From: Hymenopus coronatus
Taxonomy: Eukaryota > Arthropoda > Insecta > Mantodea > Hymenopodidae
DNA: 64,000 nucleotides
Direction of reading: 5' to 3'
NCBI GenBank assembly: GCA_030762935.1
Contig: CM060888.1
Location: forward strand, 116,633,468-116,697,467
The notes beneath the pieces were generated by a model, which was not told the DNA's origin, made no database searches, and was given only the letters and a program-made list of their open reading frames with translations. Position numbers and translations under genes: made by a program. How positions within the stretch are numbered: the stretch's first letter is position 1; each line of letters starts with the position of its first letter. Of the stretch, positions 1,664 to 59,917 are shown one piece after another.

Positions 1664-2460
1664 TTTTTACTTTCTATAGACGTACTATGTACATAGTGTA
1701 TAAAGAAGGTATTCCATTCCACCCAAAAATCGATACCGAGATTTCAATGGAAATAGAGTATTTTCAGAAAAAGGTCCGTGTGTGTGAGCGTGTCCGTGTA
1801 TCCGTGTGTCTCTGAACACGATAATTTGAAAACGAAAAGTCAGTAAAATACCAAACTTTGTATTTAAGTTCAGTATTTTCCAAGGATGCGACACGAAGAT
1901 TTTCAAGAAAATCCCCCCACACCCAACTACACCTTACATGGACAAATTTTAAAAAAACATTATTTTCTCAAAAATGTAACTAACGATTTTGGTTAGAATG
2001 TCTTATATTAAAGATATTTAAATGACTAATGAAATGTATATCTTGAACTTTCTGGGAATATCCTCTGAAGGTATCTGGATGAACTTTACGGAATTTTGCA
2101 TAACAGGTAAACCGTAAGGAATATCCAAAAACTTAATGGAAAATCTATAGCTCGTTAAAACACGCAATTTATGTAATATACATCTTTTTCTTGGAGTTGA
2201 TCGTTTTTCAGACATTCCTTGTTATTGGTTTCAGCTATAAAATATTTATACTGTTCTCATACAGGAACATGCCAACTCCTGGCCACGCAAAGAAACAGGT
2301 TTCAATTCCATAGCAATTTCAATTCCACATTTTAAAACATTTGATTGTCGGTTTAGTCTAATGAATTTCCTTATTTCCCTTCTACTTATAAGGGACAGGT
2401 AATAAAACGTTTCTGCAAACGTTTATCTCGATTAATATGAAGTAGATAGATGAATATTGC
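1664..2460 (-). repeat. HTR-1, nearly full length
   Basis: The copy starts with the terminal hairpin (CTTTCTATAGAC ... TATGTACATA ... TATAAAGAAGG, 1669-1710), then a decayed GTCC/GTGT minisatellite (1773-1815). The internal palindrome near 1846 has one mismatch in an arm. The distal body belongs to the variant with 'ggccacgcaaagaaac' near 2281 (subtype II). The far end is lost at about 2460. About 30 bp later an S1 SINE begins, so the terminal stem-loop may have been removed by that event. Confidence 0.85.
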
Positions 2461-2491
2461 AACTGGTATTGTATGATCTTTAAATGACTGT

Positions 2492-2769
2492 GTCGCCCTC
2501 CGTGGTGTAATGGTTATCATGTCAGCTTTATATACCCAAGGTCGCGGGTTCAAACCCGGCTAAGGGCGATGGCTTTTTTTCGGGCGTAAAAGTCCTTAGC
2601 ATAGCTTCCTTCGGAAGGGAAGTAAAACTGTTGGTCCTGTGTCGTAGATTTGCGGCACGTTATAGAACTAACGAGCAAAATTAAACGATCTTTCACCCCC
2701 AATATAGAATGGGATGCCTAGAACCACAGCAGTTAAAGAATGTCCATAAATAAAACGCCATTTCATTTT
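2492..2769 (+). mobile_element. S1 SINE, tRNA-derived, full-length copy
   Basis: The head is tRNA-like. An A box (TGGTGTAATGGTTATCATG) and a B box (GGTTCAAACCC) are both present, and the ends GTCGCCCT and AGGGCGAT pair as an acceptor stem. The anticodon arm (gctttatatacccaagg) does not fold properly, so this is not a working tRNA gene. The body carries 'gtcgtagatttgcggcacg' and 'acgatctttcaccccc', and the element ends in 'aaataaaacgccatttcatttt'. The same order of blocks is found at 7446, 17487 and (reverse) 44845, which defines the family. Transcription in life would be by RNA polymerase III from the internal boxes (known for the class). Confidence 0.85.
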
Positions 2770-3942
2770 AAATGGCTATAAAGCCTGAAGGAAGTGGAGG
2801 ATTTTCTATGGAAACACAAATCTTTCAATAATAATTTGTAATAAAGCAGGAATTTTACCAATTGTATTCAAAACTGTATTCTCAGTGTTTCTTTTTCAGC
2901 TTGGAGAGGCTGTATGTAAATGCAAAGTTGTCAAGTTTACTTCACTAATGTTGCTATGATTATGTTTTCCCCAGTTGAATACATTTGTGGCATTTGTGAA
3001 AGTTATTGTACTTGCTGTACGAGAGAAATGGTATTCGCTGTATGGTCGGCATGTGAAGATTGCAATAGTTAGGGGTCTGACATCTCTTTAGTCAATGTCA
3101 CGGGATCACAAAGCATTTGATCGATCGAGACCCACCGAGTAGATGTGCGATTGCCACCGCATGCCAGATGAACTCGATAACAGACCCAGTTGAAGAGCAC
3201 ATGTTAAATTTGTCTAACGATCTGCAGTTATAATACGTTAGCGTGGAACTGGTTCTGACGGATCTCGGTGACGCTTATTAGACTTTGAAGCGTTCCCTTG
3301 AGCTTTGCGTGGGATGCTACTTTTATTTCCAGATTATGTAACCGTCTGAAATGTTGACATTTTGTTTTCTTTTATACATTCCCAAGGTTTGTCCATGAAC
3401 TTGTATATTCTTTGGACCGGTGCTATAAAATACTATGGTATTGCCTGCAATAAAATAAAAAGTTAAAAAAAAGTTTACTTTGAATCCTGCCTAGCTTTAC
3501 AAACAGAGTCTGGATATTAGATTTCACCGGAATTACAGGCGAATTTAGGAAGCTATTTCCTGAATAAAAAATAGATGGTTTACAGCAAATACGCTGCGTA
3601 TACGCAAATGTTTATCTATTTACCCGTTTGCGAAAGGCGTATATGAAACAAATGGAATAAATGCCAAAAGTTCTATTTATCTCAGATTTGCAACAAACGA
3701 AGATTTTTTGCAATGCACTTTGACACATTCAGTGCTCTTTTTGTTTGGTGAACTATGTTGAAGCAGTTTTTGTTAATTTTGGCATTATAAATTTATATTT
3801 CTTCCCAAGTATTCATTAAATAAATGGTTTCTAAACCCGTGTGAGTGGGTACAGCGTTGAGGAAACTAAATTAGCAGAACGAACTGGTTTTTTTTTTTTT
3901 TTCGAAATATAACTATATTACCACCACCACCACCACCACCAC

Positions 3943-3973
<31 letters not shown>

Positions 3974-4610: not shown

Positions 4611-5467
4611 TTTTTATTACTTTCTCTATACGTAATAATCAATAGTGTAAAGAGAAGGTATTGCGCTCTGCCCAAAAATTCGATACCAAGATTTCACCGG
4701 AAATATATGTTTTAGGGTCCCCTGTATCAAAAAAAAAAACATTTTCAGAAAAAGGTCCGTGTGTGTCCGTATGTTCATGTGTCTGTGAACACGATAACTC
4801 AAAAACGAAAAGTCGATAACATACCAAATTTGGTATTTAAGTTTAGTATCTTCCAGGTATGCGACACGAAGATTTTGAGAAAAATCCTGCCACCCCAAAT
4901 TACCCTTTACATGGAGCTTTTTTCGAAAATTTTGATTTTTTCAAAAAATGGCTCTAATGATTTTGATTAAAATGTCGTATATTAAAAATATTTACTTGAC
5001 AAATAACAGGTATATCTTCATTTTTCTAGGAATAGCCTCTGAAGATTACTTTATTCTGGATGAAATTAACGTTATTTTGCATAACTGCCAAACCGTAAGG
5101 GATAGATAAAAACTTACTACACAAAACATGTAGAGTACGTTAAAACACACAATTTATGTTATGTACATTTTTTTCGTGGAGTCGATCGTTTTTTAGATAT
5201 TCCTTTTTTTTTTTGATTTTACAGGAATTTGTCAACTCCTGTCAATACAAACAAAGGAACTTCAGTCACATTGCAAACAGCTTTTGACTATCACTTTAAT
5301 TATGGTACTCCCTTATTTCGCTTCTAGTTACAAGGAAGCAAATAATAAGACTATTTCTGGTAATTTTTCTCGATCAGTATGAGGTAAATAGAACCATAAG
5401 CCTTCTTACAATAATTTGTTGTAGATATATAGAGAAAGACATGTGAATGGAATACATCAGCTTTTTT
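4611..5467 (-). repeat. HTR-2, full length
   Basis: Both ends are present: 'tttttattactttctcta' at the hairpin end and 'gaatggaatacatcag' at the stem-loop end (5446-5460). The hairpin centre is decayed (gtaataatcaatagtg in place of TATGTACATA). The palindrome near 4822 keeps the core taccaaatttggta. The satellite is short (gtccgtgtgtgtccg). It is a subtype I copy ('gaatggaa' loop). Confidence 0.88.
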
Positions 5468-7612: not shown

Positions 7613-8981
7613 TCATTTCAATTGAGATAAAGCTCTATAGAAATGCTTATAATATACCATTCGTTATGACATGAAGAGGGAAATATCGACGTCAAATTTT
7701 TAATAACTGAGTCTGTATACTGGTCTTAAAAATCTATCCTAGTTTCAATAAATCGCGATAAACAACTGAATATCAAACTACAAACAATGGCAAGCTATAA
7801 TTTTAATAATATTGAAGAATTAGAGCCATTAATAACAGATAAATCGGAAATGACTTATGCCTATGTATATAATTACGTGGAATATATTGTCTAATTAAAG
7901 AAGATTTTTCTCCGAATGAGGAGACTTTCATAAGCTATTCCTAGAAAAATAAAGATATACATTCTATTTTTCATGAAAATATCTTTAATATATAACATTT
8001 TACTTTATGAAAAAATTTTGAATAATGTTCATTTCATTCCTTCCTTCTGGGGAGTGCTAGCCATAATAAATCTCACGTAAGTCTGAGTCCGTGATATAAA
8101 ATATATATGTATATATATTGTTATAAAATTTGAAAATTTATTTTTGCTATCAAAAGAGATCTACGAAGCTTTAACATTATGTCAACAAACACGTTTCCCA
8201 TACAGGAAATATTAGGCTGTCTCTCGACTTGGAATGTAATACCTGGTGCTCTCTGCCAAAGAGAAATCTGAATTAGGGATTCTGATAGCTTTTAGAGATG
8301 TATAACCACATGTTTAGCTATTATAGGTGTTATTGATGTGGGCGGACGACTAAGTAACGATGCTATAAAGTCATTTGAAGAAATGACACGCCATCGATTT
8401 CATTTGTTACAAACATCTATTAATAACAGAGATACAGCGAAAAAGAAGACAAATGTTGTCTGACATTAACGGCATGGTAGTTGATTTTCACTATGGCCAT
8501 CAGCATTTATCACTAGTATGTATCTTAAAACATTTACAAGCTGTTTGCGGTATATACTTTTGGCTTAAGGACCATGCGCCATAAGGTTCAGAAGCACGTT
8601 TGACCCTTAGCAGCACGCGACAACCTCTTGACCGACTGAGCCGGTGCACTAATGGCTTGCCAGATTTGGTTAGATTGAATTACCGAATATGGAGACCAGA
8701 CTTAAACACAATGGGACGTTTGTCGCTCTGTGCAACTTCCGCGTCGGTTTGCCTACCTGCCAGCTGTTGCATCAGAATGAGGATTCTTGATGGCCTGTGT
8801 CATTTGGCATGCTCCTAGGTCGTAAACCTTCAGAGGAACAGGAGAAAATGAGATAGGATTTACTGAAACTTTCGACAAAACAATGCTGATGAACAACAGC
8901 GTTTATACCTTTCTCTGCTGCTTATTTAAGGTAGGAGAAGTATGCCTTTCAAAAATTGGATACCGAGATAAAAAATAAAAT
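7613..8981. other. Unassigned; scrap of HTR hairpin side at its end
   Basis: There is no recognisable gene. The bases 8943-8969 (caaaaattggataccgagat) match the part of HTR just inside the hairpin and look like a tiny orphan fragment next to HTR-3. An open frame of 72 codons at 8600-8818 has somewhat higher G+C than its surroundings but resembles nothing I know. Confidence 0.4.
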
Positions 8982-9702
8982 AATCTGACGTGTTCCATTC
9001 ATATGACTTTCTCTATATCTCTGCAACAAATTATTGTTAGAAAGTTTATGCCTCTATCTCTATAGCTCTGCAACAAATTATTGTTAGAAAGCTTATGCCT
9101 CTATAGCTTTTTTATAGCTGAAACCAATAATAAGGAATAAGTCAAAAACGGTCAACCCCACGAAACAAATGTATATGACATAAATTGTGTTTTATCATGA
9201 TCTACATTTTTGTGTAGTAATTTTTTGTCCATCTCTTACTGTTTAGCAGTTATGCAAAATTCCGTAAAATTCATCCGGAATAAAGTAGTCTTCAGAGGCT
9301 ACTCCCAGAAAATTCAAGATATACATTTCATTTGGTATGTAAATATCTTAAATATAAGAGACTTTAATCAAATTCGCTGGAGTTATTTTTGAGAAAATCA
9401 AAATTTTTGATAAAAGTTCCATGTAAAGTTTAGTTTGAGGTGAGGAAATTTTCTTGAAAATCTTCGTGCCGCATTCTTGAAAGATACGAAACTTAAATAC
9501 CAAGTTTGGTATTTAACAATCCTTTCGTTTTTAACCTATGCGTATCCAGAGACATACACGCGCACACATACACACGGATGTTTTTCCAAAAAATGTTGTT
9601 TTTTTTTGTATTTAAGGGGACCCAATACATGTATTTCCGGTGACATCTGGTATCGAATTTTTGGGTGCAATACAATACCTTCTCTATACACTATGTACAT
9701 TT
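8982..9702 (+). repeat. HTR-3, rearranged copy
   Basis: The stem-loop end (atctgacgtgttccattcatatgac) is intact. A 47-bp segment containing 'ctgcaacaaattattgttag' is tandemly duplicated (9009-9055 and 9056-9102). About 220 bp of the body normally found after 'cttatgcctctat' is missing. The internal palindrome AAATACCAA-GT-TTGGTATTT is perfect at 9494-9513. The terminal hairpin is truncated on its outer arm (tatgtacatttttagtaag), where it meets HTR-4 in opposite orientation. Confidence 0.82.
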
Positions 9703-10012
9703 TTAGTAAGGGCCCTGTTATATGTATTTGTGTGTCTGTGAACAGTGTACCTTAAAAATGAAAAGTCGCTTAAGAAGCAGTCTTAGTATTTAAGTTCAGT
9801 TCATCTAAGAATACAATACGAAGATTTTAAACAAAAACTAGCTGGTCAAATTACTGTTTAGATAAGATTTTTTATTTTATTTTTATTATTATTTTTTTAT
9901 TTTCTCAAAAACGGCTCTAATGCTTTGCATTAAAACGCCGCATTTTAAGACATTTGCCTGACAAATGAAATGTATTATCAAGAGATTTCTAGAAATAGCT
10001 TGTGGAAGTTTT
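9703..10012 (-). repeat. HTR-4, fragment
   Basis: It begins inside the satellite (gtatttgtgtgtctgtgaac) and continues through the block 'aaaaatgaaaagtcg', the decayed palindrome and the 'tgacaaatgaaatgtat' block, then is lost. The hairpin is missing at the junction with HTR-3. Confidence 0.75.
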
Positions 10013-10479
10013 CATTTTGAATGGGATTTGACAACTTTTAACCGCAAGAAAGAACAAAAATTTGCTATAGAAATTGTACATCTCGTTCACGTATACAACT
10101 TGTACTATATAAACAATTTGTGGAAGCATTTTGGAGATTTTTTTTAATATGGAATTGCTAAATACCTCATTTCTTTAAGCTGGAAAGAGAACGGAATTTG
10201 AGCGGAATATCAAAGGCATCAGTTAGCGAACATTGTTAAAAGATTTGACTAGTGCTTAATCCTACTGCATTTTCTGTTACAACTGTGCCTACTCATAAAA
10301 AAATAGATATTTATTGAGGGCATTTCTAGCACTGTTGTCCTCAGTTATCAGAGAACTAGTCAAATATAATTCGGAATTAGTTTTTACAAATTTATTGGAT
10401 CCACAACAAAAAGTAAAAAAACGTCTCATTTTTCTACATGATCTTATACATTTAAATATATTTTGGCATCAAGTAGTAA
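10013..10479. other. Unassigned sequence next to a mariner relic
   Basis: Nothing can be assigned with confidence. The right part may be the decayed C-terminal end of the adjacent minus-strand mariner derivative. Confidence 0.35.
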
Positions 10480-11811: not shown

Positions 11812-12672
11812 CTTTTATTACTTTCTCCATACGCACTGTGTACATAGTGTATAGAGAAAGTATTGCACTCCACCAAAAAATTCGAAAAAAAGCATTTTCA
11901 CAAAAAGGTCCGTGTGTGTGTGTGTGTGTGTGTGTGTCCGTGTGTCCGTGTGTCCGTGTGTCTGTGAACGCGATAACTCAAAAACGAAAAGTCGGTAAAA
12001 TACCAAACTTGGTATTTAAGTTTAGTATCTGACAGGGATGCGACACGAAGATTTTGAGAAAAATACCCCCACCCCCAACTACCCTTTACATGGAACTTTT
12101 TTCGACAATTTTGATTTTCTCAAAAATGGCTCTAACGATTTTGATTACAATTTCGTATATTAAATATATTAACCTGACAAATAAAATGTATATCTTCAAT
12201 TTGCTTGGAATAGCTTCTGAAGAATAGTTTATTCTGGATGAATTTTACTAAATTTTGATAACTGCTAAACCGTAAGAGATGGACAAAAACTTACTACACA
12301 AAAATGTAGAGCACATTAAAACACACAATTTATGTTATATACATGTTTTTCGTGGAGTTCGTCGTTTTTGTGACATTCCTTATTTTTGGTTTCTGCTATG
12401 AAAAACGTATACTTTTCTCATACAGGAACTTGTCAACTCCTATCCATATAAACAAACGAACTTCATTGACATAGCAACCAGCTTTTGACTATCACTTTAA
12501 CCTACGGTTGTCCCTTATTTCGCTTCTACTTACAAGGAAGCGAGTAATTAGACTATTTCTGCTAATTTTTTTTCTGATTAGCATAAAGTAAATAGAAGTA
12601 TAAGCTTTTTAAGAATTATTTGTTGCAGGGATATGGAGAAAGTCCTGTGAATGGTACACATCAGATTTTTTG
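11812..12672 (-). repeat. HTR-5, full-length reference copy
   Basis: This is one of the best-preserved copies. In order it shows: the hairpin at about 11820-11862; a (TG)n/GTCC minisatellite at 11908-11963; the conserved block 'cgataactcaaaaacgaaaagtcgg'-like sequence; a perfect palindrome at 11998-12017 (arms AAATACCAA and TTGGTATTT, 2-nt spacer); 'gatgcgacacgaagatttt' at 12038; the 'acaaataaaatgtatatctt' block at 12177; and the far end 'gagaaagtcctgtgaatgg' with 'tacacatcag'. The frame around the palindrome is open for short distances only, so I do not treat it as coding. Confidence 0.9.
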
Positions 12673-12887: not shown

Positions 12888-13745
12888 AATGTGTTCAATT
12901 CACATGACATGCTCTATCTGTTCTACAAATAAACCATTCTTGCAAAATATTCTTCTTTTATTTATATACATCATCGAATCAAGTCAAATATTGTCAGAAA
13001 CGGTTTTATTACTTAGTTCCTTATAAGTAGAAAAGAAATAAGGGAATACTAACATTAAAGCGACTGTCAAATCTTACCTAACCTCACGCATGCGATTGTC
13101 ATTAAAAGGCGAATGTCTTTCCATGACCAAGAGAAATACAAACGAGAGAAGAAACAGACGAGGGCTTCCCGTTTGAGAAAAGTTATAAGTACTTTAAAAT
13201 TAAAACCAACAACAGGTAATGTCTCTGATATAGTTAGCTGTACAAAAAGCTGTGAATTGTATGCTTTGATCTACATTTTTTGTGTAATAAGCTTTTATCT
13301 ATCTCTTACGATTTACCAGTTATGAAAAGTCATTCAGAATGAAGAGGTCTTCGGGGGACATTCCCCAGAACTTATTTGCCATGTACATCTTTTTAATATA
13401 CGCATTTTAATCAACTTCATTAGAGTCAGTTTTTTTTAAATGAAATTTCTAAAAATCTTTCATGTAAAGTGTAGTTGGGGAGGTGGATTTTACTGAAAAT
13501 CTACCTGTTGCATCCTTGGAAGATACTGAACTTAAATACAAAGTTTGGTATTTAAAGCAGCTTTTCGTTTTTGAGTTATGCTGTACTCACACCCTGACAT
13601 ATTTCCAAAAATGCTTTGTTTTATTTGGGGATCCTCAAAAAATGTCATCTACAGTGACATCTCAGTATCCAATATTTGAGTGGAATTCAGTACCTTTTCT
13701 AACTATTATGTGCATTGTACTTACGTGCTAAAGAAATTAAAAATC
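12888..13745 (+). repeat. HTR-6, diverged copy
   Basis: The stem-loop end (gttcaattcacatgacatgctc) and the general block order are kept, but the satellite is reduced to 'actcacaccctgacat' (13583-13598) and the hairpin is reduced to 'ttttctaactattatgtgc'. Only one palindrome arm (tttggtattta, 13543) survives. The body has 'ccttataagtagaaaagaaataaggg' near 13020, typical of the family. It appears older than its neighbours. Confidence 0.78.
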
Positions 13746-14522: not shown

Positions 14523-15234
14523 AAAAAATCTAACGTGTTCCAATCACATGATTCTCTAAGTCGCTGTAACAAATTATGGCTAAAAAGCATATTCTTCCAT
14601 CTACTTTATGATAATCGAGATAAGCTGTAGCAGAAATTGTCTTAATTACTTGCTTCCTTGTAAGAAGAAAGCAATTAAGGGAATATACTAGGCTAACGTG
14701 GCAGTCAAATCTTTTAAAAGTCCCTTGCCATATGGATGAAATCCAGTTCCATGAAGAGCTAAGAGTTCACAACTTTCTGTGTGAGAAAAGTTTAAGTCTT
14801 TTACATCTGAAACAAATAACAAGTAATATTTCAAAAATGGCCAATTCCAGAAAAAAAAGTAAATGACATAAATTGTGTGTTTTAACGTGATCTACATTAT
14901 TTGTGAAATAAGATTTTTGTCTATTTCTTACGGTTTACAGGTTACGCAAAATTCAGCAAAATTCATTCAGATTAAAGAGGTTTATAGAGGCTATTCCCAG
15001 AAAATACAAGATATACACTTTATTTGCTATAGAAATATCTTTAGTATACGATATTTTAATCAAAATCGTTAGAGCCAGTTTTAAGAGAATCAAAATTATG
15101 GACATTTGTTCCATTTAAAGGGTAGTTTGGGATGGAGGCATTTTTCTCAAAATCTTCGTGTCGTATCCCTGGAAGATACTAAATTTAAATATACTTATTT
15201 TACTGACTTTTCGTTTTTGAGTTATCGAGTTCGC

Positions 15235-15278
<44 letters not shown>

Positions 15279-15430
15279 GTGCGGATCTTTTTTTCTGAAA
15301 ATGCTTTCTTTTTTTTATTCAAGGGACCATAATACGTGTATTTCTGGTGAAATCTCGGTATCGAATTTTTGCGTGGAGTGTAATGCCTTCTCTATACACT
15401 ATGGACATAGTACTGTAGAGAAAGTAAAAA
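14523..15430 (+). repeat. HTR-7, full length with pure (AC)n
   Basis: Both ends are present (aaaaaatctaacgtgttcc; tagagaaagtaaaaa). The satellite is an uninterrupted AC dinucleotide array at 15236-15277. Part of the palindrome is lost: after 'ggaagatactaaatttaaata' the text jumps to 'tacttattttactgac'. The hairpin centre reads tatggacata. Confidence 0.88.
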
Positions 15431-15873
15431 TGGTTGCATTGTAAGGCCGTACAAAACTTGAATTGATGCAACAACTCTTAGACAGTCATTTTTCACTGCG
15501 GTCTTTCCTCTGCACTGTAACCTTAGGCATTTTATTCATGAAGAATGGACTCGATTAATATCGAAAAGTGCTTGCTATGAATCTCTGTTGGCCGTTATCT
15601 TTCAAAGTTTCGCTTGCATCACGATACTTACAATTTAAAATTGCGCTTGCATACAGAGCGTGTTTCTTAAACTATTGTAAAGTTTCGTATCATTTATTTT
15701 ATTTCGCATTCTTGATGTGAATAGCATAGGACTTTTCATTCCGCAGACAACGAATTCTGTACTTAATACCGTTGCGGAAAAGATACTTAAACAATAGGAC
15801 CATTAATGTGTTAGCACACATTCAAGGGGTTTGGAGGTGGAATCTCTGTTAGCGTAAGTTAACCAGATAAGTG
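15431..15873. other. Unassigned spacer
   Basis: No recognisable feature. It separates HTR-7 and HTR-8. Confidence 0.4.
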
Positions 15874-16013
15874 TTTTACTTTCTCTACACGTTCTATTGC
15901 ATAGTGTATAGAGAAGGTATTATAATGCATCCAAAAATTCGATGCCTAGATTTCACCGGAAATACATGCTTTGGGTCCCCCTGAACCCATAAAAAATGGT
16001 TTCAGGAAAAAGG

Positions 16014-16057
<44 letters not shown>

Positions 16058-16739
16058 TGTGGACAGCATAGCTCAAAAATGAGAAGACTGTTAAAAACCA
16101 AACCTATATTTAAGTTTGGTATCTTCCAAGGATGCGACACGAAGATTTTCAAGAAAATCCCCCACGCCAAACTACCCTTTACATGGGAAAAAATTTCGAA
16201 AATGTTGATTTCCTTAGAAATTGCCCTAATTATTTTGATTAAAATATCGTATACTAAACATATTTATCTGACAAATAAAATGTATATCTTGAATTTTCTG
16301 GGAATAGCCTCTGAAGACTACTTTATTCTGGATGAATTTTGCATATCTGCTAAACCGTAAGAAATGGATAAAAACTTAACACACACAAAATGTAGAGGAT
16401 GTTAAAGTACACAATTTATGTTATATATATATTTTTTTTTCGTGGATTTTATCGTTTTTGAGATATTCCTTGTTTTTGGTTTCAGCATTGAAAAACATAC
16501 TTCTCTCATACATGAATTTGCCAACTTGAGTCCAAACAAATAAACTTCAATTACATAGCAACCAGCTTTTGGCTTTTGATTTAACCTATGGTAACTCTGA
16601 TTTCGCTTCTACTTACAGTAAAGCAAGAAATAAGACTATTTCTGCTAATTTTTCTCGCATGAAGTAAATAAAAGAATAAGCTTATTAACAATAGTTTGTT
16701 ACAGAAATATGTCATGTGACTGGAACACATCAGATTTTT
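15874..16739 (-). repeat. HTR-8, full length with pure (GT)n
   Basis: It has a hairpin at 15878-15918 with decayed centre (gttctattgcatagtg), a clean GT array at 16015-16056, and the far end 'gtgactggaacacatcagattttt' at 16715-16739. Between the satellite and the body the palindrome has lost one arm (accaaacctatatttaag). Confidence 0.88.
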
Positions 16740-17940: not shown

Positions 17941-18088
17941 TCTATCATACACCATTTCTGTTCTGTTTAAATGTTAACCACCGTTACTGTACTGTTAGTA
18001 CAAATTGGCTAACCTATATAGTAAAGATTAAAGGTCACATTAAGGCAATGAAACTGCAAAAATCACAAATGCTATCATTTAATATTCT

Positions 18089-21851: not shown

Positions 21852-21857
21852 GTTTAC

Positions 21858-42045: not shown

Positions 42046-42101
<56 letters not shown>

Positions 42102-42584: not shown

Positions 42585-42763
42585 TGGAAAACTACAGACT
42601 CCCAAAAAGGTTCGCGTCTATTAGCCTACAGGCAAGAAGTTACTAGCCCGTCTACCGAAGAGATGAATACATCAACTTGACATATATACCTTGAGATCGG
42701 AACAGGCATATATGCCTATACCATTCTGTTGATGCTGCGGCTGATGGAGATGTTGTTTACATT

Positions 42764-43479: not shown

Positions 43480-43520
<41 letters not shown>

Positions 43521-43632
43521 TATTCAGAGAGTCCCAAAACATGGATTTCCAGTGAAATCTCGGTATCGAATTTTTGGGTGCAATACAATACCTTCTCTAT
43601 ACACTACGTACATAGTTCGTATAGAGAAAGTA
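42764..43632 (+). repeat. HTR-23, last of the run
   Basis: Complete ends (aaaaatgtgatgtgttccattcac; cgtatagagaaagtaa). The stretch 'gctaattaagtcttatt' lacks the usual ~20 bp 'cgagaaaaattagcagaaata'. A T run of about 38 bp (43482-43519) follows the satellite. Hairpin centre decayed to 'ctacgtacatag'. Confidence 0.89.
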
Positions 43633-44844
43633 ATAATTGTGTCATTGGGATTTTATTCCTGGAGAAATTAATAGATAGGCACATTTTATTTTAATGACGG
43701 AGAACTGAAGTTATGGAAGAGGTTTGCAGTTGTTTCCTTTTTTTTTATGCAGAGGTAATTGAAGATTTTCAGAATATTTTAAATTTATCGGTGTACAGGC
43801 AAGAATTTATAGATGCACTTATCAAATAATCTAGAACAACAAGGAATACTATCTCAGATTATTATGCTCCTTGTGGCTTAGTTCCATTGACAAATTTAAT
43901 GTTTCCATAACCGTTGGGTATAAAAAGTAGCGCATTTCCATAGATCCTAATAGGTTTTTCCCTCCGTAATATTTCCCAAATATTGACTCCACCCAATCGG
44001 TATATCAGCCACATAATCTATACCAGACACCACTAACGCGCTTGATTTTCAGTAGAGTAAGTAGGTTTGCTCCGTGCATGTAGTGGGCTAACACATAACA
44101 GCGACGATTGGTCCATCTTTCATTGCAGTGTGTCCTGTGCCAGTTTAAAACGTCGGTAACAGAAGCTATCCGACACGCAGGTTGTCGACTCCTACGTTTA
44201 TGCCTACCTGGGTGGAACATAACTGACCAAGTTTGCACTCGTTAAAATTAATTCTCACTCTTACTCTTAGCGTACAATGTGATTGCAATGGCATTGGCCT
44301 AATTAAAGAGTTTTTTTTATATGTTAGTAGTCAATATTATAATAATTTTTATTATCTTTTGCAATTATTTGTGTTACGTCTATCGAATACACGAAGATAT
44401 AGATATGTTTATATCAGAAATTAAATACTAATGTAACAGAGACTTTAATATGGCATTGTTCTACCAATCATGAACTTACAATAGGTATATAAACCAAAGA
44501 AGATATGTGACAAAGCTTAATGATGGTCTTTTCTAAAGAAAACTTGGTTAACAAATTACTGTCCCTAATTAAAGGACAGGACTTTTTAATTAAAACAACG
44601 CGGTAGGAGGTAATGCAATCAGTGTTAAGGTCAATTACAACCCAATGCTATCACTACAATGTCAAGTCAAGTCTATTAAAGATGAATTACGTATTTCAAA
44701 CGCCAAATGTGCCACTGCACGGAAGGAATTATCTGTTCCTGCTTTAAGCGCTACTGTATCACAGTGCGCAGTAGGTGATTCTTAGGAGCATCGAGAAAAG
44801 TTGCTCTCTCTTCGTTACTCAATGAGCAATCCTTTGGTGACGTT
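43633..44844. other. Unassigned sequence
   Basis: No recognisable element. A 77-codon frame on the minus strand (44005-44238) is in a locally G+C-richer patch and shows no domain I know. Confidence 0.4.
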
Positions 44845-45931: not shown

Positions 45932-46045
45932 GGCCCCATGGCCGCGCTCGCTTTGGTGCTTCGTAGCGCTGGGGATCGTGGGTTCGAGTCCCGTCTTGGG
46001 CATGGGTGTTATATGTTTGTGAATATGTGTGCGTTGTAAAAGTAA
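45932..46045 (+). mobile_element. S2 SINE
   Basis: Contains 'catggccgcgctcg', a B box (GTGGGTTCGAGTCCCG) and 'ttgggcatgggtgttatatg', followed by a GT-rich end. Same order as the minus-strand copy at 21858. Confidence 0.75.
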
Positions 46046-46799
46046 GAAAACAGTAATAACACAGCAAAACAAGCTAAAAAAAAAACGCCATAACATTAAA
46101 AGTTATAGCCTCTAAGAACAGGTGCAGACGGATAGCTTGTGGGTGTCTTACGGAAGCCGTTGAACCTCAAAAAGCAACAGAGACATGGTATAATCTTACA
46201 TTGGTAACCACAAAACTAGTATCTTCTGCCATCCGTGAGCGATACACATTTCATCAGGAGCTGACTTGTTTTTTCTTCTCCTTGCAGGTGAGTCGTGTCT
46301 GGTTAACGTGAGGACGAGAGTTGGGCCACCACAAGTATTGTAAGTTATATTGAAAACTGCACCCTAATAGAGACCTAGAACTTTTGCAATGATGTGCAAG
46401 GAGTACGTGCTGTGTCGGAAACACTTTTTTTTTTGTTGTTTCTTTTCTAGTTTCTTTCTTTCTTCGTTCAGTGGTACATAATAACAATCTGAGTTGTGCT
46501 CTTCACCTGAATCCTTTGTGTTTGCAGAAAAGTGTTCCATGCTAAAATGCTGAATATAGCAGTGACACTGAAAAGTTGTAGAGTCCTTTGTTTCTAAAAT
46601 CACTGCAGTCAAATGCATAAATGGTACAGGACGGGGAGGGCCAAAAAAAGTAGCCGGTGTTTTGGTACGCTTGGAAGAGAACGGATTTTGCTCTTTTACT
46701 TTCAAAAAATCACTTCAATTTTATTACAATAGTTTAATTATGTACTCGTATTTAGTGGTTGAAAGTTAGTATAGCATAGAGTACAAACCCTGTTTATAT
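46046..46799. other. Unassigned sequence
   Basis: The minus-strand frames at 46254-46705 cover a T/C-rich tract (tttcttttctagtttctttctttcttc) and are not convincing as a gene. Confidence 0.4.
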
Positions 46800-47757: not shown

Positions 47758-48142
47758 AAAATTATTCTTGTTCAAATATCTAAAATATATGCATTTATTT
47801 CTCATTCAAATAGGTATAATATATAGTATTCTATTCAAAATCGTTATAGCTACTTTTTAGAAAATGTAAATTTAAAAAACTTCCGTATAAAGGGCAGTTG
47901 GGGTTAGGGGATTTTTTTGAAAATCTTCGTGTCACATCTTTAGAAGAGGTTAAGTTTGTTATGTAATAAACTTTTCGTCTTTATGCTGATTACACTCACA
48001 TACATACATACGTACACGGACCTTTTTCTAAAAATGTTTTATTTGGATTCAGCACATGTATTTTATATATATTCAAAACATATATTTTCGGTGAGATCTG
48101 TTTGGTCTTCCTCTTTTTAGTGTACGCAGTAGAGAAATAAAA
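47758..48142 (+). repeat. HTR-24, hairpin half only, decayed
   Basis: It begins 18 bp after the mariner stop codon at the 'atatgcatttatttctc' block and runs to a worn hairpin end (gtacgcagtagagaaataaaaa). The palindrome is lost (gttaagtttgttatgtaata). The satellite is 'acactcacatacatacatacg'. Confidence 0.75.
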
Positions 48143-48284: not shown

Positions 48285-49311
48285 AAATCTGATGTGTATC
48301 ATTCACATGACTTTCTCTATATCCCTGCAACAAATTATGCTTAAAAAGCTTATGCTTCTATTTACTTCATGCTAATCTAGAAAAATAAGCAGAAATAGTC
48401 TTATTACTTTCTTCCTTGTAAGTAGAAAGGAAATAAGGGAGTAGCATAGATTAAAGCCATAGTCAAAAGCTGGTTACCATGTGACTGAAGTTCCTTTACA
48501 ATAAGAACTAAAGCTTTCCTGGCGACGTGTTAATTCAAAATCTTCTCGGGCTTCTAGCCAGGTAAAAACTTGGCTTGACACCAACGTTTCGAAGAAGTGC
48601 ATCTTCCTAGTCTTGAATTGAAGTTCCTTTGTTTGTATGGACATGAGTTGACAAATTTCTGTATGAGAAAAGTTAAGATTTTCGACCCTGAAAACAAAAA
48701 CAAGGAATATCTATAAAACGATCAACTCCAAGAAAAAAATGTATACAACATAAATTGTGTGTTTTAATGTGCTCTACATTTTTTGTGCTGTAAGTTTTTG
48801 CCTATTTCTTGCGGTTTAGTAGTTATAAAAGATTCCGGAAAATTCATTCAGAATAAAGTAGTCTTCAGAGGCTATTCCCAGAAAATTCAAAATATACATT
48901 TTATTTGTCGGGTAAATATCTTTAATATACGATAGTTTCATCAAAATCGTTAGAGCCATTTTTAGAAAGTAAAAATGTTCGAAAAAAGTTCCATGTAAAG
49001 GGTAGTTTGGGGTGGGGGGACTTTTCTCAAAATCTTCGTGTCCCATCCCTGGAAGATACTAAACTTAAATACCAAGTTTGGTATTTTACCGACTTTTCGT
49101 TTTTGAGTTATCGTGTTCACAGACACACGGACACACGGACACACTGACACACGGACACACACACACGGACCTTTTTCTGAAAATTACTTTTTTTGGATAC
49201 AGGGGATCCTAAAACATATATTTCCGGTGAAATCTCGGGATCGAATTTTTTGGTGGAGTGCAATACCTTCTCTATACACTATGTACATAGTGCGCATAGA
49301 GAAAGTAAAAA
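48285..49311 (+). repeat. HTR-25, full length, interrupted by a 121-bp insertion
   Basis: Complete ends (aaatctgatgtgtatcattcac; gcatagagaaagtaaaaa). The satellite is an ACACGG minisatellite (49119-49171). The palindrome is perfect at 49067-49086. The hairpin at 49265-49305 is well kept. Confidence 0.91.
48498..48618. mobile_element. 121-bp insertion with 12-bp target duplication
   Basis: The 12-mer TGAAGTTCCTTT occurs at 48486-48497 and again at 48619-48630; removing one copy and the insert restores the HTR sequence. The insert contains 'ggtaaaaacttggcttgac' and 'accaacgtttcgaagaag'. On the minus strand this reads 'gaagatgcacttcttcgaaacgttgg', a phrase I associate with the ends of some retroelements (possibly Penelope-like). 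That assignment is uncertain. Confidence 0.8.
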
Positions 49312-49530
49312 TGAATCCCTGAAATGTTTGTACGCGTATCACTTCCGAACAACTGCATTAAATTGAACAATTCTTTTTTTGTTGTGTTCATTATTGTCAC
49401 GATTAGGTTTGTGGAAAAGAAAATGTGTAAAATTAGTACGGGAAAGTATTTAAAATCTCATAATATGAATAAAAACCGTGCCCAGCGAAGGCACTTCGGT
49501 TAATAGCCACAAGATGGCAGCGGCATCACG

Positions 49531-49978
49531 GTTATTTGTTGCTAAATGGTCGTAGTGCTGCTATATTTTTCCCTCCCCATTCAATGTTAAGGTAATGCAC
49601 CAGTTCATCGACACAATGACGCAATGCAGCAGTGAAATTTCAAATACATTTTTATATATTAACTGTCCTCTCCTTACTCCTATCGTTTAAAATAAAGAAT
49701 CAAAGAAGCTTTGCTAACGATGAACATCTAGAATAAGTACTTATTTATTTTCCGATAGATAGCGATAGTAGTATTTTTCCTCCCCATCCAATATTAAGGT
49801 AACGCAACAGTTTATCGAGATAACACAACGCAGCAGTGAAATTCAAATACATATTTATGTATTAACTGTCCTTTCTTTACTCCTATCGTTTAAAATAAAG
49901 AAGCTTTGCTGGCGGCGAACACCTGAAGTACGAACTTATTATTTGCCACTAGATTGCCGTAGTACCTACTGTTCTATA
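49531..49978. repeat. ~200-bp tandem repeat, units 1, 2 and start of 3
   Basis: Unit 1 (49531-49740) and unit 2 (49741-49935) share 'tatttttcc-ctccccat-caat-ttaaggtaa', 'gcagcagtgaaat', 'tattaactgtcct' and 'actcctatcgtttaaaataaag'. Unit 3 begins at 49936 and is broken by HTR-26 at 49980. Similarity between the units is about 80-85% by eye. Confidence 0.88.
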
Positions 49979-49980
49979 TT

Positions 49981-50880
49981 TACTTTCTCTAGTCCCATAT
50001 GTATAATGTACATAGGGATAGAGAAGTATTGTATTCTACCCAAAAATTCGATACCGAGATTTCACCGGAAATACATGTTTTAGGACCATCTGTATCCAAA
50101 AAAAGTATTTTCAGAGAAAGGTTCGTGTGTGTGTGTGTGTCCGTGTGTCTGTGAACACGATAACTCAAAAACGAAAAGTAGCTAAAATACCAAACTTGGT
50201 ATTTAAGTTCAGTATCTTCCAGGGATGCGACACGAAGATTTTGAGAAAAATCTCCCACCCCAAACTACCCTTTACATGGAACTGTTTTCGAAAATGTTTA
50301 TTTTCTTAAAAATGGCTCTAACGATTTTGATTAAAATATCGTATATTAAAGATATTTACCTGACAAATAAAATGTATATCTTGAATTTTCTGGGAATAGC
50401 TTCTAAAGACCTGTTTATTCTGGATGAATTATGCTTAATTTGGCATAACTAGTAAACCGTAAGAGATAGACAAAAACTTACTATACAAAAAATGTATGCC
50501 TTGTTAAAATACACAACTTACGTCATATACATTTTTTTTCGTAGAGCTTACCGTTTTCGAGGTATTCATTGCTATTAGTTTCAGTTGTGAAGTACTTATA
50601 CTTTTCTCAGACGGGAGTGTCCGTTTTTCTTTTGTTCTACTCCTGGCCAAGAAAAGAAGCAATTGGTAACGACCATCGCATAACGACAGCTTTTAAAACA
50701 TTTGACTATCGATTTAGCCTAGTGTAGTCCCTTATTTTCTTCCTACTTATGACGAACTAAGCAATAAGAATATTGTGCTGAATACCTCGATTAGCAAGGT
50801 GCAGAAAGAAGAATAATCTTATGTAAGAAGTTTGTAGAACGACTGGAGAAAGTCATGTGAGTGTAACACATCAGATTTTT
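49981..50880 (-). repeat. HTR-26, inserted in unit 3 of the tandem repeat
   Basis: Complete mixed-type copy: the hairpin half resembles subtype I and the distal half is subtype II (cagacgggagtgtccg, actcctggccaagaaaag, loop 'agtgtaa'). The palindrome is perfect at 50186-50205. Because the host is a repeat with intact sister units, the boundaries are known to within a few T residues. Confidence 0.93.
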
Positions 50881-51010
50881 CTTCTTCAATGCTAAGGGAA
50901 TGCACCCAGTTATGGAGCCAATGACGCAAGATAACTGCGAAAATCAAATGTATTTCTCATGTATTAGCTACTGTTCCCTTGGTCACATCGTTTAAATAAA
51001 GAAATAAGTA
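50881..51010. repeat. Tandem repeat unit 3, remainder
   Basis: It resumes right after HTR-26 with 'cttcttcaatgctaaggg' and continues 'atgacgcaag', 'gaaaatcaaatgtat', 'gtattagctactgttcc' and 'catcgtttaaataaag', in the same order as units 1 and 2. Confidence 0.85.
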
Positions 51011-53227: not shown

Positions 53228-54067
53228 AAAGATGTGTTCCATTCATATGACTTTCTCGACATCTCTGCCACAAATTATTCTTAAAAAGCTTATGCTTCTA
53301 TTTACTTCATGCTAATCAAGAAAAAAAAAAAAAAAAATCAGAAATAGTCGTATTATTTGCTTTCTTGTAAGCAGTAACGAAATAAGGGAATACCATAGCT
53401 TAAAGTGATAGTCAAAAGCTGGTTGCTATGTTACTAAAGTTCCTTTGTTTGTATGGACCGGAGTTGACAAATACAGTATGAGAAAAGTATAAGCTTTTTA
53501 AAGCTGAAACCAAAACAAGGAATATCTCAAAAACGATAAACTCTACGAAAAAAGTATATAACATAAATTGTGTATTTTAATGTGCTCTAGTTTTTTATTG
53601 TAAGTTAATGTCCATCTCTTAAGGTTTAACAGTTATGCCAAAATCCGTAAAATTCATCCTGAATAAAATAGTCTTCAGAGGATATTCCCAGAAAATTTAA
53701 CATATACCTTTTTTTGTCAAGAAATATCTTTATTATACGATATTTTAATTAAATCTTTATAGCTATTTTTGAGACATTAACAATTTTCAAAAAAAGTTCC
53801 ATGTAAAGGGTGGTTTGGGTGGGGGAACTTTTCTCAAAGTTTGGTATTTTACCGACTTTTTGTTTTTGAGTTATCGTGTTCACAAACACGCGGACACATG
53901 TGCACACACGCATCCCGAACTTTTTCTGAAATAGTTTTTTTTTGGGGGGGGGGGGGTACAGGAAACTCTTAAACATATTTCCGGTGAAATCTCGGTATCC
54001 AATTTTTGGGTGAAGAGCAATACCTCCTGTATACACTACGTACATAGTACATGTAGAGAAAGTAAAA
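53228..54067 (+). repeat. HTR-27, full length without palindrome
   Basis: Starts 'gatgtgttccattcatatgac', with the leading 'aatct' lost. A run of 17 A (53322-53338) sits where 'cgagaaaaatt' is expected. The bases from 'ttctcaaaatcttcg' to the palindrome are deleted, joining 'ttttctcaaa' to 'gtttggtatttta'. A G run (53945-53956) precedes 'tacaggaaa'. Hairpin end intact. Confidence 0.88.
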
Positions 54068-54810
54068 ATCTGTCTGAAATTTATGTGCCAAATACTTGTA
54101 AACTTTTATAAAGCATTCAACTGTGTTATTAGTGCAACGTTGTGCTACATAGCATTTTGGTCCTATCTGAGTAACGATTAAAAATATATAGTTACGAATT
54201 AAGCTCTGTATAAAAACAAATGCAAAAGAAATAAAATATCACTTTCTTTATTGAACTGTTAGAAATTAACCAGTATGTCAGGTATTCCTGATAAACATTT
54301 AATACAACATCCTAAGAAAGCTGATTAAATGTTTAACCAGAAGTGCTTGTTTCTAACATGAAGTTAAAAGTGAAGTTAAGATATATCTGCAGGAAATGAA
54401 CGATATTTATTTCAATGCAATAACTGAAGAAATGTTTGATAGAGTATTTCCTCCCCCAAATATTAGTTTGATAATCCGTGCAAAATCTTCGCGATATCCA
54501 ATGCTGTGCAGAATTCCTGGACAGCGGTTACTTCTTCTGCAACATTTGTGTATGTTTTTTTCTTTTACTTCTTCTTTACTTTGTAATCCGCAGAAATTCT
54601 TTAGCTCCATACTTTAAAATTAACATTTTGATTAATAAAAATATTCAAACTATTTATTTTCCGTTATGTTGCGCCAATAGTCAATAATGTTTTATAAAAG
54701 GTAGCCAAATTTCCATACATTTCATCACAAGTATTTAAGACATCTGACCTAACTAATACATTATCAGAACGTCGAATGATTTATAAACAAAATATGAATT
54801 GCAATATTAT
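54068..54810. other. Unassigned sequence
   Basis: No HTR or SINE similarity. A 73-codon frame at 54396-54617 overlaps one on the other strand and has no known motif. Confidence 0.4.
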
Positions 54811-55187
54811 ATTTCTCTACACGTACCATGTACATAGCGTATAGAAAAGGTATTGTATTGCACCCAATAGTTTTATACCGAGATTTCACCGTAGATATGT
54901 TTTAAGACCCCTGAATAATAAAAACGCATTCTTAGAGAAATGTCCGTGTGAGTGTCTGCCAGTCAATCAGTCTGCCTGTCTGTCTTTGGGCAGCATAGCT
55001 CAAAAACGAAAAGACCGTTAAATACCAAACTTGGTATTTAAGTTCCGTATCTTCCATGGATGGGACAAGAACATCTCCCATCCCCAATTACCGTTTCGAA
55101 AATTTGGATTTTCTCAAAAAGGTTTATTCTGGATGAATGTTGCGGAATATTGCATAACTGGTAAACCGCAAGAGATAGGCAAAAACT

Positions 55188-55651
55188 GGCGAAGTATTTG
55201 GAGAAAAATTAAGAAACGTCTCTGTGATATTGACAGACAGCAAAAGATTGCGCAATGCACAGAGAAGGTGTCATTAGAAGTACAGTCTGTGCTGAAATCG
55301 GAGTGGGGTATGGAGCAATACATCAAAACAGGTACCAAACTCATTAGAGAGGGGCTCGCGTGGATTAGACTAGGAGCATGGAGGAGCACGAACATTTCTG
55401 ACGAGAATGGTACGAGAATCTGTCCCATTTGCGAGGAGGAAGAGTCGTGGACTCACATCTTGGCAAGATGTAGGGGTGCGGAGAAATGGCGGGAAAAATA
55501 TTTGCCGCTATTTTTTGCCACTGCGAATGTAGGGATAGAAGCATGTTGGACGCTACTGGCAGGTAAATTTATACTTAAGGCAAGACAGCTGAGATCTGAG
55601 GAGGCTGCCAATAGAGAAGGGGGGGGGATAAGATCAACTAAACAAAAGTGA
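55188..55651 (+). pseudogene. LINE ORF2 C-terminus with zinc-knuckle
   Basis: The frame is open from within HTR-28 (55031), so the apparent 206-residue protein is a chance fusion. Residues from about 53 on are LINE-derived. The diagnostic motif is CPICEEEESWTHILARC, a C-x2-C-x7-H-x4-C knuckle, followed by WREKYL. This knuckle lies at the C-terminal end of reverse transcriptases of Jockey/I/R1-like clades. The upstream part (IKTGTKLIREGLAWIRLGAW) matches the segment before the knuckle in these proteins. The polymerase domain is absent because of 5' truncation. The open frame and clean motif suggest a fairly young insertion. Confidence 0.82.
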
Positions 55652-56973: not shown

Positions 56974-57029
56974 TGAGGGCTGTCCCAGAAGTACACAACT
57001 TAAGAAAGAAAGCACAACAATTTTGGGGA

Positions 57030-58090
57030 AAACATCTTTATTTCGCTGCATAGTCTCCTTTCAGCTCGATATACTTTTCCCAGTGATGTCCAATTGCTTC
57101 GATACCCTGCTTATAATGATAACTATCAAGATCTGCAGAATAGCCATCAACTGCAGACTCCACATCTTCATTGTTGGCAAGTCTTCTACCACCAAGCAAT
57201 TTCTTCAAGTTTGGAAACAAAAAATAATCAGAGGCACCTAAATCTGTTTTTTTTTGTAGTGTTTAACGCCCGCTTTTAGTGTTTAGGTGAGAGGCGAGTG
57301 GTCTGACCACTCGGCCACGGCGTGGCTCCTAAATCTGGTGAATGGGGTGCGCGAGGGAACAATTCGAACTTTAACTCATTGATTTTGGCCATGACGATAA
57401 TGGAGTGTGAAATGGTGCATTGTCTTGAAACAATTTTTTTTCTCGCTAAATGTGGCTGTTTTTGATCGATTTCATTGCTCAAAAGCTGTAAAAACTCGCA
57501 TTATGTTCGCCATTGATTACTTTTCCTTTTTTTAAATAAGCAATAAACATTATTCAGCGTGCGTCCCAGAAAACTGACGCCATGGCCTTGCCTGCAGATA
57601 CCTTCTTTGGAGCCGATTATCCCTTTCCAATCCACTATTTTGATTGTTCCTTCGCCTCAGGTGTGAAGAAATGGATCCAGGTCTCATACATTGTTATGAA
57701 TCGACGCAAAAATTCAGCTTTATTGCAGCGAAACGCTGCCAAACACTCGACTGAAACATCCTCACGACGCTATTTTTGTTCTACTGTGAGCAAACGTGGC
57801 ACCCACCTTGCATACAGCGTTATCATATCCAAATTTTCAGTCATTATGCGATGTACAGAGTTTTTTGAAATGCCTGAAATATATGCTAGCGCGCGCACTT
57901 TCAGACAACGGCCATCCAATACCATTTTGTGGCTTTTCTTTACAATTTCTAGACTTTTAATCTCATTTGCTCGACCACTGCGATGTTCGTCTTGGCAGCT
58001 CTTACACCGCGCTTAAACTCTGCCACCCAATATTTCACTATTATAAACGAAGAAGCAGACTCCCACAAAGTAGAGTCTAACACAGGTTTA
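57030..58090 (-). pseudogene. Mariner transposase pseudogene (first Asp lost)
   Basis: Reading the minus strand from 58090: KYWVAEFKRGVRAAKTN (HTH linker), EIVKKSHKMVLDGRCLKVR and HRIMTENLDM (second HTH), LYARWVPRLLTVEQK, then RRFITMYETWIHFFTPEAKE. The block 'ITMDETWIHHFTPE' has Tyr (TAT) where the first catalytic Asp should be. ASVFWDA and LKKGKVINGE follow, then DQKQPHLARKK, 'MAKINELKFELFPRAPHSPD' (third Asp kept) and, after the SINE, FPNLKKLLGGRRLANNEDVE ... YKQGIEAIGHHWEKYIELKGDYAAK. Stops follow QK (57755 region) and 'SK' (57650). In-frame identity to active mariners is high, so decay is moderate. Confidence 0.9.
57247..57327 (-). mobile_element. S6 mini-SINE (81 bp) in the mariner
   Basis: It is bounded by a perfect 10-bp duplication CCTAAATCTG (57237-57246 and 57328-57337). 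On the minus strand it starts with 'agccacgccgtggccgagtgg', the 5' half and A box of a tRNA-Ser/Leu-like sequence, continues 'tcagaccactcgcctctcac', then 'agcgggcgttaaacactac' and about 10 A. There is no B box, so the element is unusually short. Confidence 0.88.
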
Positions 58091-58335
58091 ATATTAGTTG
58101 GCTAAGACCTTTCAAATGAAAGTTTTGCACCTCATAACGATGTCCAGTTTCATACATATTTATAAATCAGTTCAGAGCATTCACTAATGATGATGGCGAA
58201 ACAAATGTTAAAGAATGTAAAATCGTCAAACTTCAAACTTAAGTTTTCTAAGGTTAGTAATTTTTACCATATTTGTTGTTTGAAAAAACAACCGCTATCT
58301 ATACGTCAGGTCGGTTACTTCTGGTTCAGCCACTG

Positions 58336-59123
58336 TATTTGTCTTTGTAATTTCAAATGCTGAAACTAAAACGAGCTCTCGAGGCAAGGTAATATCGTGA
58401 CTTAAACGTTGTGGTTGCTACCACTGCTATTATTAGCAATCATCCGATTAAAGATGTTCAGCACCTCCCTAGAAGAACATGGTCGGCAGTTGTCTGCAAA
58501 TAATTAATGACCATGTTCATATAAATATATTTATGTAACAAAAGACTGTGGGTAAACTTTGCTGTTTGGTCTGGAAATAAAACGATATGGTAATTTAATT
58601 TCCAACAGCTATGTTAACCAGTCTATCCTGTGTTTTCTGTCTTGAGAAAGACTCTAGCGGATAATTTATTCTCTCTTTGCTGAATTAATGCAGTGTGGTA
58701 AAAGCGAATATGCGGAAAATCAAATGACTTACTGACTTAATGTAGCAATGCATTATTAATGCGTATCCCTGGTTTGTAGCAGCACTTGTTAGACTACAAG
58801 TATGCCATTTGTAAATTAATGAAACACGCTGGAGCATAAATTTTGGTTCGTGACTTCACTGTGTGTTTCATAGATTGCATGATACAGATTCAGTTGTCTG
58901 GAAAGTCTACTTTTCTTTCACATATTTTACGGTAATTTATTTTGTGGAGATGCAAAAATAAGTTTACATGTACTGACACAAATACGGAGCGATATATTTG
59001 GAGTCAGGTAGTCAAGTAGTTACTTTTTATGGATAGCATATAATCAACCTCACAGGATTGAAGAAAAACCTGTAAACTCTATCTCTGATATGAACATCGG
59101 CTTATTTTTGGTTTTTGGATTAT
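58336..59123. other. Unassigned spacer between two mariners
   Basis: AT-rich, no recognisable feature. Confidence 0.4.
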
Positions 59124-59816
59124 ACTACGGTCGGCTGATAAGTCCCGGGCCTCTCAATGAAAACAGCATTTAAAAAAAGTGTTGTTCGCTTTATTTCTCA
59201 ACGAAATTTCCAGAAAGGCTAATGCATTTGTATTACCGGTGTTCTAATTTAGTTAAACCATCTCTGTAGTGCGATTTATCAAGGTCCTTAAAATAGGTGT
59301 TTACCGCATCAATGACCTCCTCGTTGCTGGGAAATCTTCGTCCTCCAAGAAATGTTTTAAGGTTTAGGAACAGGTGGTAGTAGACTGGGTGCTAGTCTGA
59401 CGAATAGGGTGAATGTTCAAGCTTTTCCAACTTTAATTCGTACATTTCTCCCATTGCAATCACTGAACGATGGGCCGGAGCATTGTCTTGATGAAACAAG
59501 ATTTTTATTTATTTTTTTTTCTTGCCAAATGAGATCTTTTTCTTTTTACCTCATCACTCAAACGTTACAGTAAACTTGCGTAATAGTCACCAGTGATACT
59601 TTTACCCTTTTCCAAGTAATGAATAAAAATAATTCCTTGTGCATCCCAGAAAACACTCGCCATAGCTTTGTTAGCTAACAAAATTGACTTTGCCTTTTTT
59701 GGAATTGGTTCACCTGGCGCAATCCACTGTTTTGACTGTGATTTACTTTCTGGAGTGTAGTGATGTATCCAAGCTTCATCCATGGGAATAAGCTGTCTGA
59801 AAAATAACAATATCAA
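59124..59816 (-). pseudogene. Mariner transposase pseudogene, 5' part missing
   Basis: The downstream end carries 'ctacggtcggctgataagtc' at 59125, typical of a mariner terminal repeat, after a TA. The minus-strand protein starts abruptly at LIPMDEAWIHHYTPESKSQS (first catalytic Asp present in MDE) and continues KQWIAPGEPIPKKAKSILL, ASVFWDAQGIIFIHYLEKGK and GDYYASLL. Further on, after shifts, come HSPYSSD (decayed HPPYSPD), FLGGRRFPSNEEVIDAVNTY and the C-terminal NFVEK (59200 region). The N-terminal DNA-binding half is missing: at 59817 the sequence changes directly to HTR-29. This lineage differs from the 56974 copy in the GEPIPKKAK and DYLEKGK-like words. Confidence 0.87.
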
Positions 59817-59917
59817 GACCATTTCTGTTAATGCTATCTTGATTAACATGAAATGGATGGAAAAATAAGCTTTTTAACAATTTATTACCAACATGTGTGT
59901 GTGTGTCACACATTAGT
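59817..59917 (-). repeat. HTR-29, stem-loop end fragment
   Basis: Only the distal ~100 bp of HTR remain (gaccatttctgttaatgct, cttgattaacatgaaatgg, ataagctttttaacaattta), ending near 'atgtgtgtgtgtgtcacacatta'. It abuts the truncated mariner. Confidence 0.7.

Follow-up and report, generated by a model that had tools for sequence, protein, structure and literature searches.

The stretch of DNA analysed here, which we call the window, comprises 64,000 nucleotides of the mantis Hymenopus coronatus (assembly GCA_030762935.1, contig CM060888.1, positions 116,633,468 to 116,697,467 of the forward strand), and is densely occupied by a single interspersed repeat family, HTR. After comparison of the window with itself, an HTR consensus of 888 nt was built from the alignment of 19 near-full copies, and a search with this consensus located 30 separate places on both strands, fragments included. 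One weak match (3519) and three matches made up mostly of simple repeats (31446, 31987 and 62673) were left out of this count; HTR covers 21,847 nt (34.1%) of the window without these four and 22,145 nt (34.6%) with them. Under identical settings the consensus gave no match to one version of the window shuffled in 4-base blocks, and the word ACTTTCTCTAC (at most one mismatch) occurs 31 times in the window against 1.5 expected, a number reached in none of 100 shuffles. An original prediction, made from the letters of this stretch, had counted 29 copies filling about a third of the window and had asked for a consensus to be built from them; both of its figures are borne out. The places are listed below, together with two empty sites discussed later; subTIR stands for subterminal inverted repeat, and copies are referred to in the text by their lower coordinate, except for copy 22450, which is named in the list.

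1664-2456 (+): HTR copy that keeps its 5' end and has lost its 3' subTIR
4614-5466 (+): HTR copy with both ends
7901-8002 (-): HTR fragment, consensus 362-462
8979-9700 (-): HTR copy with internal deletion, duplicated 3' end and incomplete 5' end
9723-10141 (+): diverged HTR fragment
11815-12670 (+): HTR copy with both ends; CTCCA variant common to both subTIRs
12889-13744 (-): diverged HTR copy, 68% to consensus
14524-15432 (-): HTR copy with both ends
15874-16739 (+): HTR copy, 3' subTIR deleted, stem-loop and T-run retained
16784-17941 (+): HTR copy, diverged and interrupted
18097-18764 (+): HTR fragments counted as one diverged copy
20135-21012 (+): HTR copy, consensus match, ends scored
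21057-21854 (+): HTR copy; paralogous empty site located at 45937-46083 (-)
22473-23337 (+): HTR copy of subfamily B (copy 22450); 5' end at about 22473-22478 by eye, BLAST match from 22500
23400-24297 (-): HTR copy with both ends
25066-25596 (+): 5'-truncated HTR copy
25993-26832 (+): HTR copy with both ends
28877-29286 (-): HTR 5' half, consensus match
36368-37200 (+): HTR copy with both ends
38859-39744 (-): HTR copy, third of a head-to-tail trio
39744-40590 (-): HTR copy, second of the trio, with T-run joints to both neighbours
40587-41491 (-): HTR copy, first of the trio, grouping with subfamily B
41592-42586 (-): subfamily B member of HTR; contains a short insertion with TCAGGCAGAAA and an A-run on its flanks
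42765-43637 (-): HTR copy with both ends
45937-46083 (-): paralogous empty site of copy 21057-21854
47784-48052 (-): HTR fragment, consensus match
48285-49313 (-): HTR copy holding a ~120-nt insertion flanked by AAAGGAACTTCA
49552-49867 (+): tandem units with the empty site for copy 49976-50880
49976-50880 (+): subfamily B member of HTR within a tandem array, the remaining units of which are empty sites
53231-54069 (-): HTR copy, consensus match, ends scored
54812-56457 (+): HTR copy split by ~0.9 kb of other sequence
59815-59881 (+): HTR 3'-part fragment, consensus 767-834, ~60 nt from a mariner piece

Pairwise identity among the 19 aligned copies averages 0.77 (range 0.68-0.88), and the mean Kimura two-parameter distance to the consensus is 0.15 for the 25 pieces longer than 400 nt. 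Since the copies have diverged to this extent, HTR is an old family that derives from an old burst; the tree of 20 copies has a star-like shape and long tips. One supported group (0.996), subfamily B, unites copies 22450, 49976, 40587 and 41592. Copy 41592 has ACTTTCTCTAG at its 5' end and CTAGAGAAAGT at its 3' end, and the other three members differ from this pair at one end or the other.

Architecture of HTR

Read from 5' to 3', HTR consists of a T-run, ACTTTCTCTAYACG, a short ACTATGT/ACATAGT palindrome, GTATAGAGAAGGT and a GT/GTCC/GTCT microsatellite, followed by a TTAAATACCAA/TTGGTATTTAA palindrome, an AT-rich body, TAGAGAAAGT, the stem-loop ATGTG-N7-CACAT, CAGA and a second T-run, its ends being TTWTTACTTTCTCTAYAC and RTAGAGAAAGTCATGTGAATGGAACACATCAGATT. 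The 5' subTIR, ACTTTCTCTA, stands directly after the T-run and forms a 42-nt hairpin with a complementary arm behind it; TAGAGAAAGT, near the 3' end, is an inverted copy of the 5' arm. In the consensus the 5' word ACTTTCTCTATA is the reverse complement of the 3' word TATAGAGAAAGT at 12/12 positions. When the ends of 22 copies were scored, with at least 7 of 10 bases matched at both ends counted as a pass, 19 copies passed, a few of them with weak 3' matches; copies 8979, 16784 and 22450 failed, the last because the anchor missed its 5' end at 22478. The inverted word that the original prediction had described near both ends is therefore real, and its statement that twenty-nine copies share one layout is overstated: beside the weak matches among the 19, copy 15874 has in fact lost its 3' subTIR, and the other places are fragments or unscored. 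The 3' subTIR is set inside the element, 27 nt from the end in 12 of the 22 copies and 18-30 nt in all of them.

The 5' hairpin is far stabler as DNA than its shuffles (-9.2 kcal/mol, z -4.9), and 88.1% of its pair cells are standard across 19 copies. The 10-bp internal palindrome also stands out from shuffles (z -5.2) and could be aligned in 19 copies, one row of which (9560-9600) is without the palindrome. The GT/GTCC/GTCT runs sit at one place in the alignment and vary in length from copy to copy, with almost none in some. Between the 3' stem-loop and the end of the T-run are 9 nt, and standard pairs fill 90% of the stem-loop's pair cells across 18 copies. HTR has no coding capacity, the longest stop-free run in the six frames of the consensus being 80 codons; no central tandem repeats were seen in the consensus, and tRNA and Rfam scans were empty.

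Insertion into T-runs and the head-to-tail trio

The boundaries of HTR lie in runs of T. Among the five bases that precede ACTTTC, counted outwards, T is found in 17, 17, 12, 16 and 16 of 17 copies, falling to 6-7 of 17 in the next five. After CAGA, where the 3' ends were re-anchored (18 copies, with low scores for 20135 and 22450), the first five bases are T in 18, 17, 13, 15 and 16 of 18 copies and the following three in 11, 9 and 6, which brings T close to background. When 21 joined flank pairs were searched against the window, two pairs, those of copies 21057-21854 and 49976-50880, each aligned well through the junction to an uninterrupted paralogue. For the former, the empty site at 45937-46083 reads GTTTTC-TT-ACTT, and the filled site has GTTTTC-TTTTTT-A(element) on one side and (element)TTGTT-TACTT on the other. 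The latter is hosted by a diverged tandem array of ~200-nt units at about 49510-50980, in which an empty unit reads CTATATTTTTCCC and the filled ends read CTATATTT-ACTTTC and CAGATTTTT-CTTC, the last bases being aligned by eye. At both sites the element was inserted within a T-run and duplication beyond T is absent. Two other candidates were dropped: the 5' flank paralogue of copy 20135 (21988-22083) crosses the junction by ~9 nt only, and the junction matches of copy 8979 derive from the adjacent HTR fragment. A search for target-site duplications (TSDs) at all flank offsets of 17 copies, four of them with a wrong 3' anchor (12889, 20135, 38859 and 53231), which weakens the test, gave no excess over re-paired flanks at 2-9 nt, and the 2-5 nt matches were mainly T-runs. 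The comparison of filled and empty sites, which the original prediction had called for genome-wide, was made here within the window, and the consistent TSD of fixed length that it had named as contrary evidence was seen neither in the flanks nor at the two empty sites.

Three copies on the minus strand (41491-40587, 40590-39744 and 39744-38859) stand head-to-tail, with the T-run joints CAGATTTTTTACTTTC and CAGATTTTTTTTTACTTTC. Helitrons are known to form tandem arrays, which have been ascribed to bypass of the termination signal, and in bat and maize Helitrons of distant relationship lie side by side (PMC4067079). The first two copies of the trio are 0.74 identical. Since copy 40587 is far from both of its neighbours (0.75 and 0.74; its best relative reaches 0.83), we rejected a single rolling-circle concatemer for the first junction, for which read-through is a poorer explanation than insertion of a later copy into the T-run of one already present. 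The last two copies are 0.84 identical, a value that ranks second-best for one of them and seventh-best for the other among the 19, so that neither is the other's closest relative, and the second junction is compatible with a separate landing or with read-through.

HTR and the non-autonomous Helentrons

The HINEs, to which Drosophila DINE-1 (INE-1, DNAREP1) belongs, are non-coding elements with subTIRs of 12-15 bp, an inverted repeat behind the 5' subTIR, a microsatellite, a 3' palindrome ~8-35 bp from the end, T-run ends and insertion at TT without a TSD (PMC4067079). HTR has these parts in the same order, with subTIRs of 11-12 bp, and differs in its own subTIR, ACTTTCTCTAYA, in the position of the inner inverted-repeat arm within the 42-nt hairpin, in its 10-bp internal palindrome and in the lack of visible central tandem repeats in the consensus. 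The Cg_HINEs of the Pacific oyster follow the order of HTR as well (5' subTIR, complementary inverted repeat, GTCY/GTCC microsatellite, 3' subTIR, palindrome) and insert in T-rich or TT sites without a TSD, but have satellite-like arrays where HTR has a unique AT-rich body (PMC7492417). Because HTR is non-coding, carries subTIRs, an inverted repeat, a microsatellite and a 3' stem-loop, and inserts in T-runs with no TSD beyond T, we consider it very probable that it is a non-autonomous Helentron family, that is, a HINE. The rolling-circle, Helentron/HINE-like affinity put forward in the original prediction is accordingly supported, all of the tested structural features being present, the 3' stem-loop weakly. 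HTR appears to be a new dense family of a well-described kind, which may already be catalogued in Repbase or Dfam. It adds a HINE family that occupies a third of a 64-kb stretch, and illustrates that empty sites within a single window can serve to diagnose such a family.

Several results count against this assignment. Covariation in the 5' hairpin does not clearly exceed that of shuffles (the pairing was reached in 83 of 500 and the covariation score in 31 of 500), the 3' stem-loop is no stabler than shuffles (z -0.04; 83 of 200 as good), and no compensatory change was found in its 18 copies. The empty and filled sites are just 69-75% identical, and a duplication of T only is indistinguishable from the Ts of HTR itself. 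Finally, a partial Pfam scan of the window found no match to Rep, helicase or AP-endonuclease in six frames of 26.8-36.4, 43.6-47.8, 56.5-64.0, 2.5-9.0, 17.4-20.1 and 50.9-53.2 kb or in the plus frames of 1-1663, 10.1-14.5 kb and 54.8-56.5 kb. One pattern from the 3' end, searched against viral contigs, returned no relative, nor did one from the body in contigs of prokaryote genomes. Literature searches with the HTR end words returned no transposon paper among the matches listed; for HINE and Helentron, only the HINE papers were relevant among the matches listed.

Under an entirely different origin, HTR would be a miniature inverted-repeat transposable element (MITE), derived by deletion from a DDE transposon that had terminal inverted repeats, and would move by cut-and-paste. 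MITEs of DDE transposons have terminal inverted repeats flush with their ends and a fixed TSD. HTR does have inverted repeats near both ends, and two broken mariner-type transposase pieces lie in the window at 57494-57661 and 59520-59753 (-) (Pfam Transposase_1), one of them ~60 nt from an HTR fragment; moreover, DINE-1 was once called a MITE family (PMC2374699). The 3' repeat of HTR is not flush with the end, however, the two termini are dissimilar, and no TSD beyond T is present at the two empty sites. The inverted arms that enclose the first mariner piece (56978-58331) are unrelated to HTR, and the HTR fragment near the second is not an HTR end, ACTTTCTCTAC with up to one mismatch being absent beyond 54063. 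The mariner pieces show no HTR ends, the arms of the first being those that could be placed, and an autonomous relative with these ends that encodes a DDE transposase or reverse transcriptase, the other contrary evidence named in the original prediction, was not seen in the window. We rejected the MITE origin on the non-flush 3' repeat and the empty sites, and hold it to be very improbable.

Slightly less improbable, though still unlikely, is membership of HTR in a different rolling-circle group, Helitron2 or the canonical Helitrons, since TSD-less insertion and a 3' stem-loop fit rolling-circle elements generally. Canonical Helitrons begin with 5' TC, end in 3' CTRR and insert between A and T. 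The HTR ends TTTTTACTTTC and CATCAGATTTTT have neither the 5' TC nor the 3' CTRR, insertion is in T-runs, and the order of subTIR, inverted repeat and microsatellite is that of HINEs. In favour of Helitron2, its terminal inverted repeats are described as asymmetrical, with a palindrome at either end (PMC4067079), and for HTR it is separable from Helentron only through the protein. A retroposed family resembling a short interspersed element (SINE), with a short A/T tail, might be imagined from the AAAAA in which the opposite strand of HTR ends. T-runs are found at both ends, however, inverted subterminal repeats are retained, and insertions nested in HTR copies are flanked by duplications of 11 and 12 nt (TCAGGCAGAAA in copy 41592, AAAGGAACTTCA in copy 48285) where HTR itself has none beyond T; these two insertions are younger than their host copies and are therefore an imperfect control for age. 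This origin is contradicted at the two empty sites, was rejected, and is scarcely credible.

If HTR is a HINE, we infer that it would be mobilised in trans. A RepHel/endonuclease protein encoded elsewhere would recognise the matched subterminal inverted repeats, nick the element and, by rolling-circle copying, place it in T-runs without a TSD. The T-run that closes an older copy on its 3' side would at times receive a new one, and head-to-tail rows would be the result.

Possible matching of the subTIRs and other contents of the window

The two ends of each HTR element may stay matched to each other beyond the family motif. The 5' subTIR was compared with the reverse-complemented 3' subTIR in 19 copies, with 20,000 re-pairing shuffles. 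At positions 11-12, 26 of the 38 cells agree, where re-pairing predicts 16.1 (p 0.0004), the shared bases being T with T, C with C and G with G; p was 0.0007 over 12 positions, 0.02 over 14, 0.02 over positions 11-14 and 0.27 over the first 10. The hairpin arm, in the same test (18 copies), yielded p values of 0.73 for position 11, 0.02 for position 12 and 0.10 for the two together, and with 0.28 over 12 positions and 0.02 over 14 it is not wholly silent. The columns were chosen for their variability, related copies are non-independent, and subfamilies account for part of the agreement; we regard the matching as a tentative lead that could well prove wrong. If true, Helentron transposition would select for pairing of the two distant ends, or for their joint recognition, rather than for the 5' hairpin, and matching that held genome-wide would offer a testable lead on the recognition of Helentron ends. 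Such matching is not addressed in the available portions of PMC4067079 and PMC7492417.

Other repeats and coding remnants were noted in the window. Short insertions with GTTTAACGCCCGC-type sequence lie at about 57250-57330 in the mariner copy and at 41849-41930 in an HTR copy, both with flanking duplications, that in the mariner copy being seen by eye only. The stretches at 2495-2575 and 45937-46083 look tRNA-like by eye and contain a B-box-like GGTTCAAACCCGG, which suggests tRNA-derived SINEs; ARAGORN called no tRNA gene at either. Open stretches at 55115-55560 (+) and 392-775 (+) resemble by eye the ends of reverse transcriptase genes; neither has a Pfam match, and the first, used as query in a protein search, had no hit. 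A 100-nt tandem duplication (34551-34752) lies inside a coding stretch that looks decayed by eye and has no Pfam match. At about 60696-60855 (+) there is a match, just below the cut-off, to the helix-turn-helix domain DUF4817, which is known mainly from arthropods and hints at such a host, and a long GTAT microsatellite of 66.5 copies spans 31205-31476.

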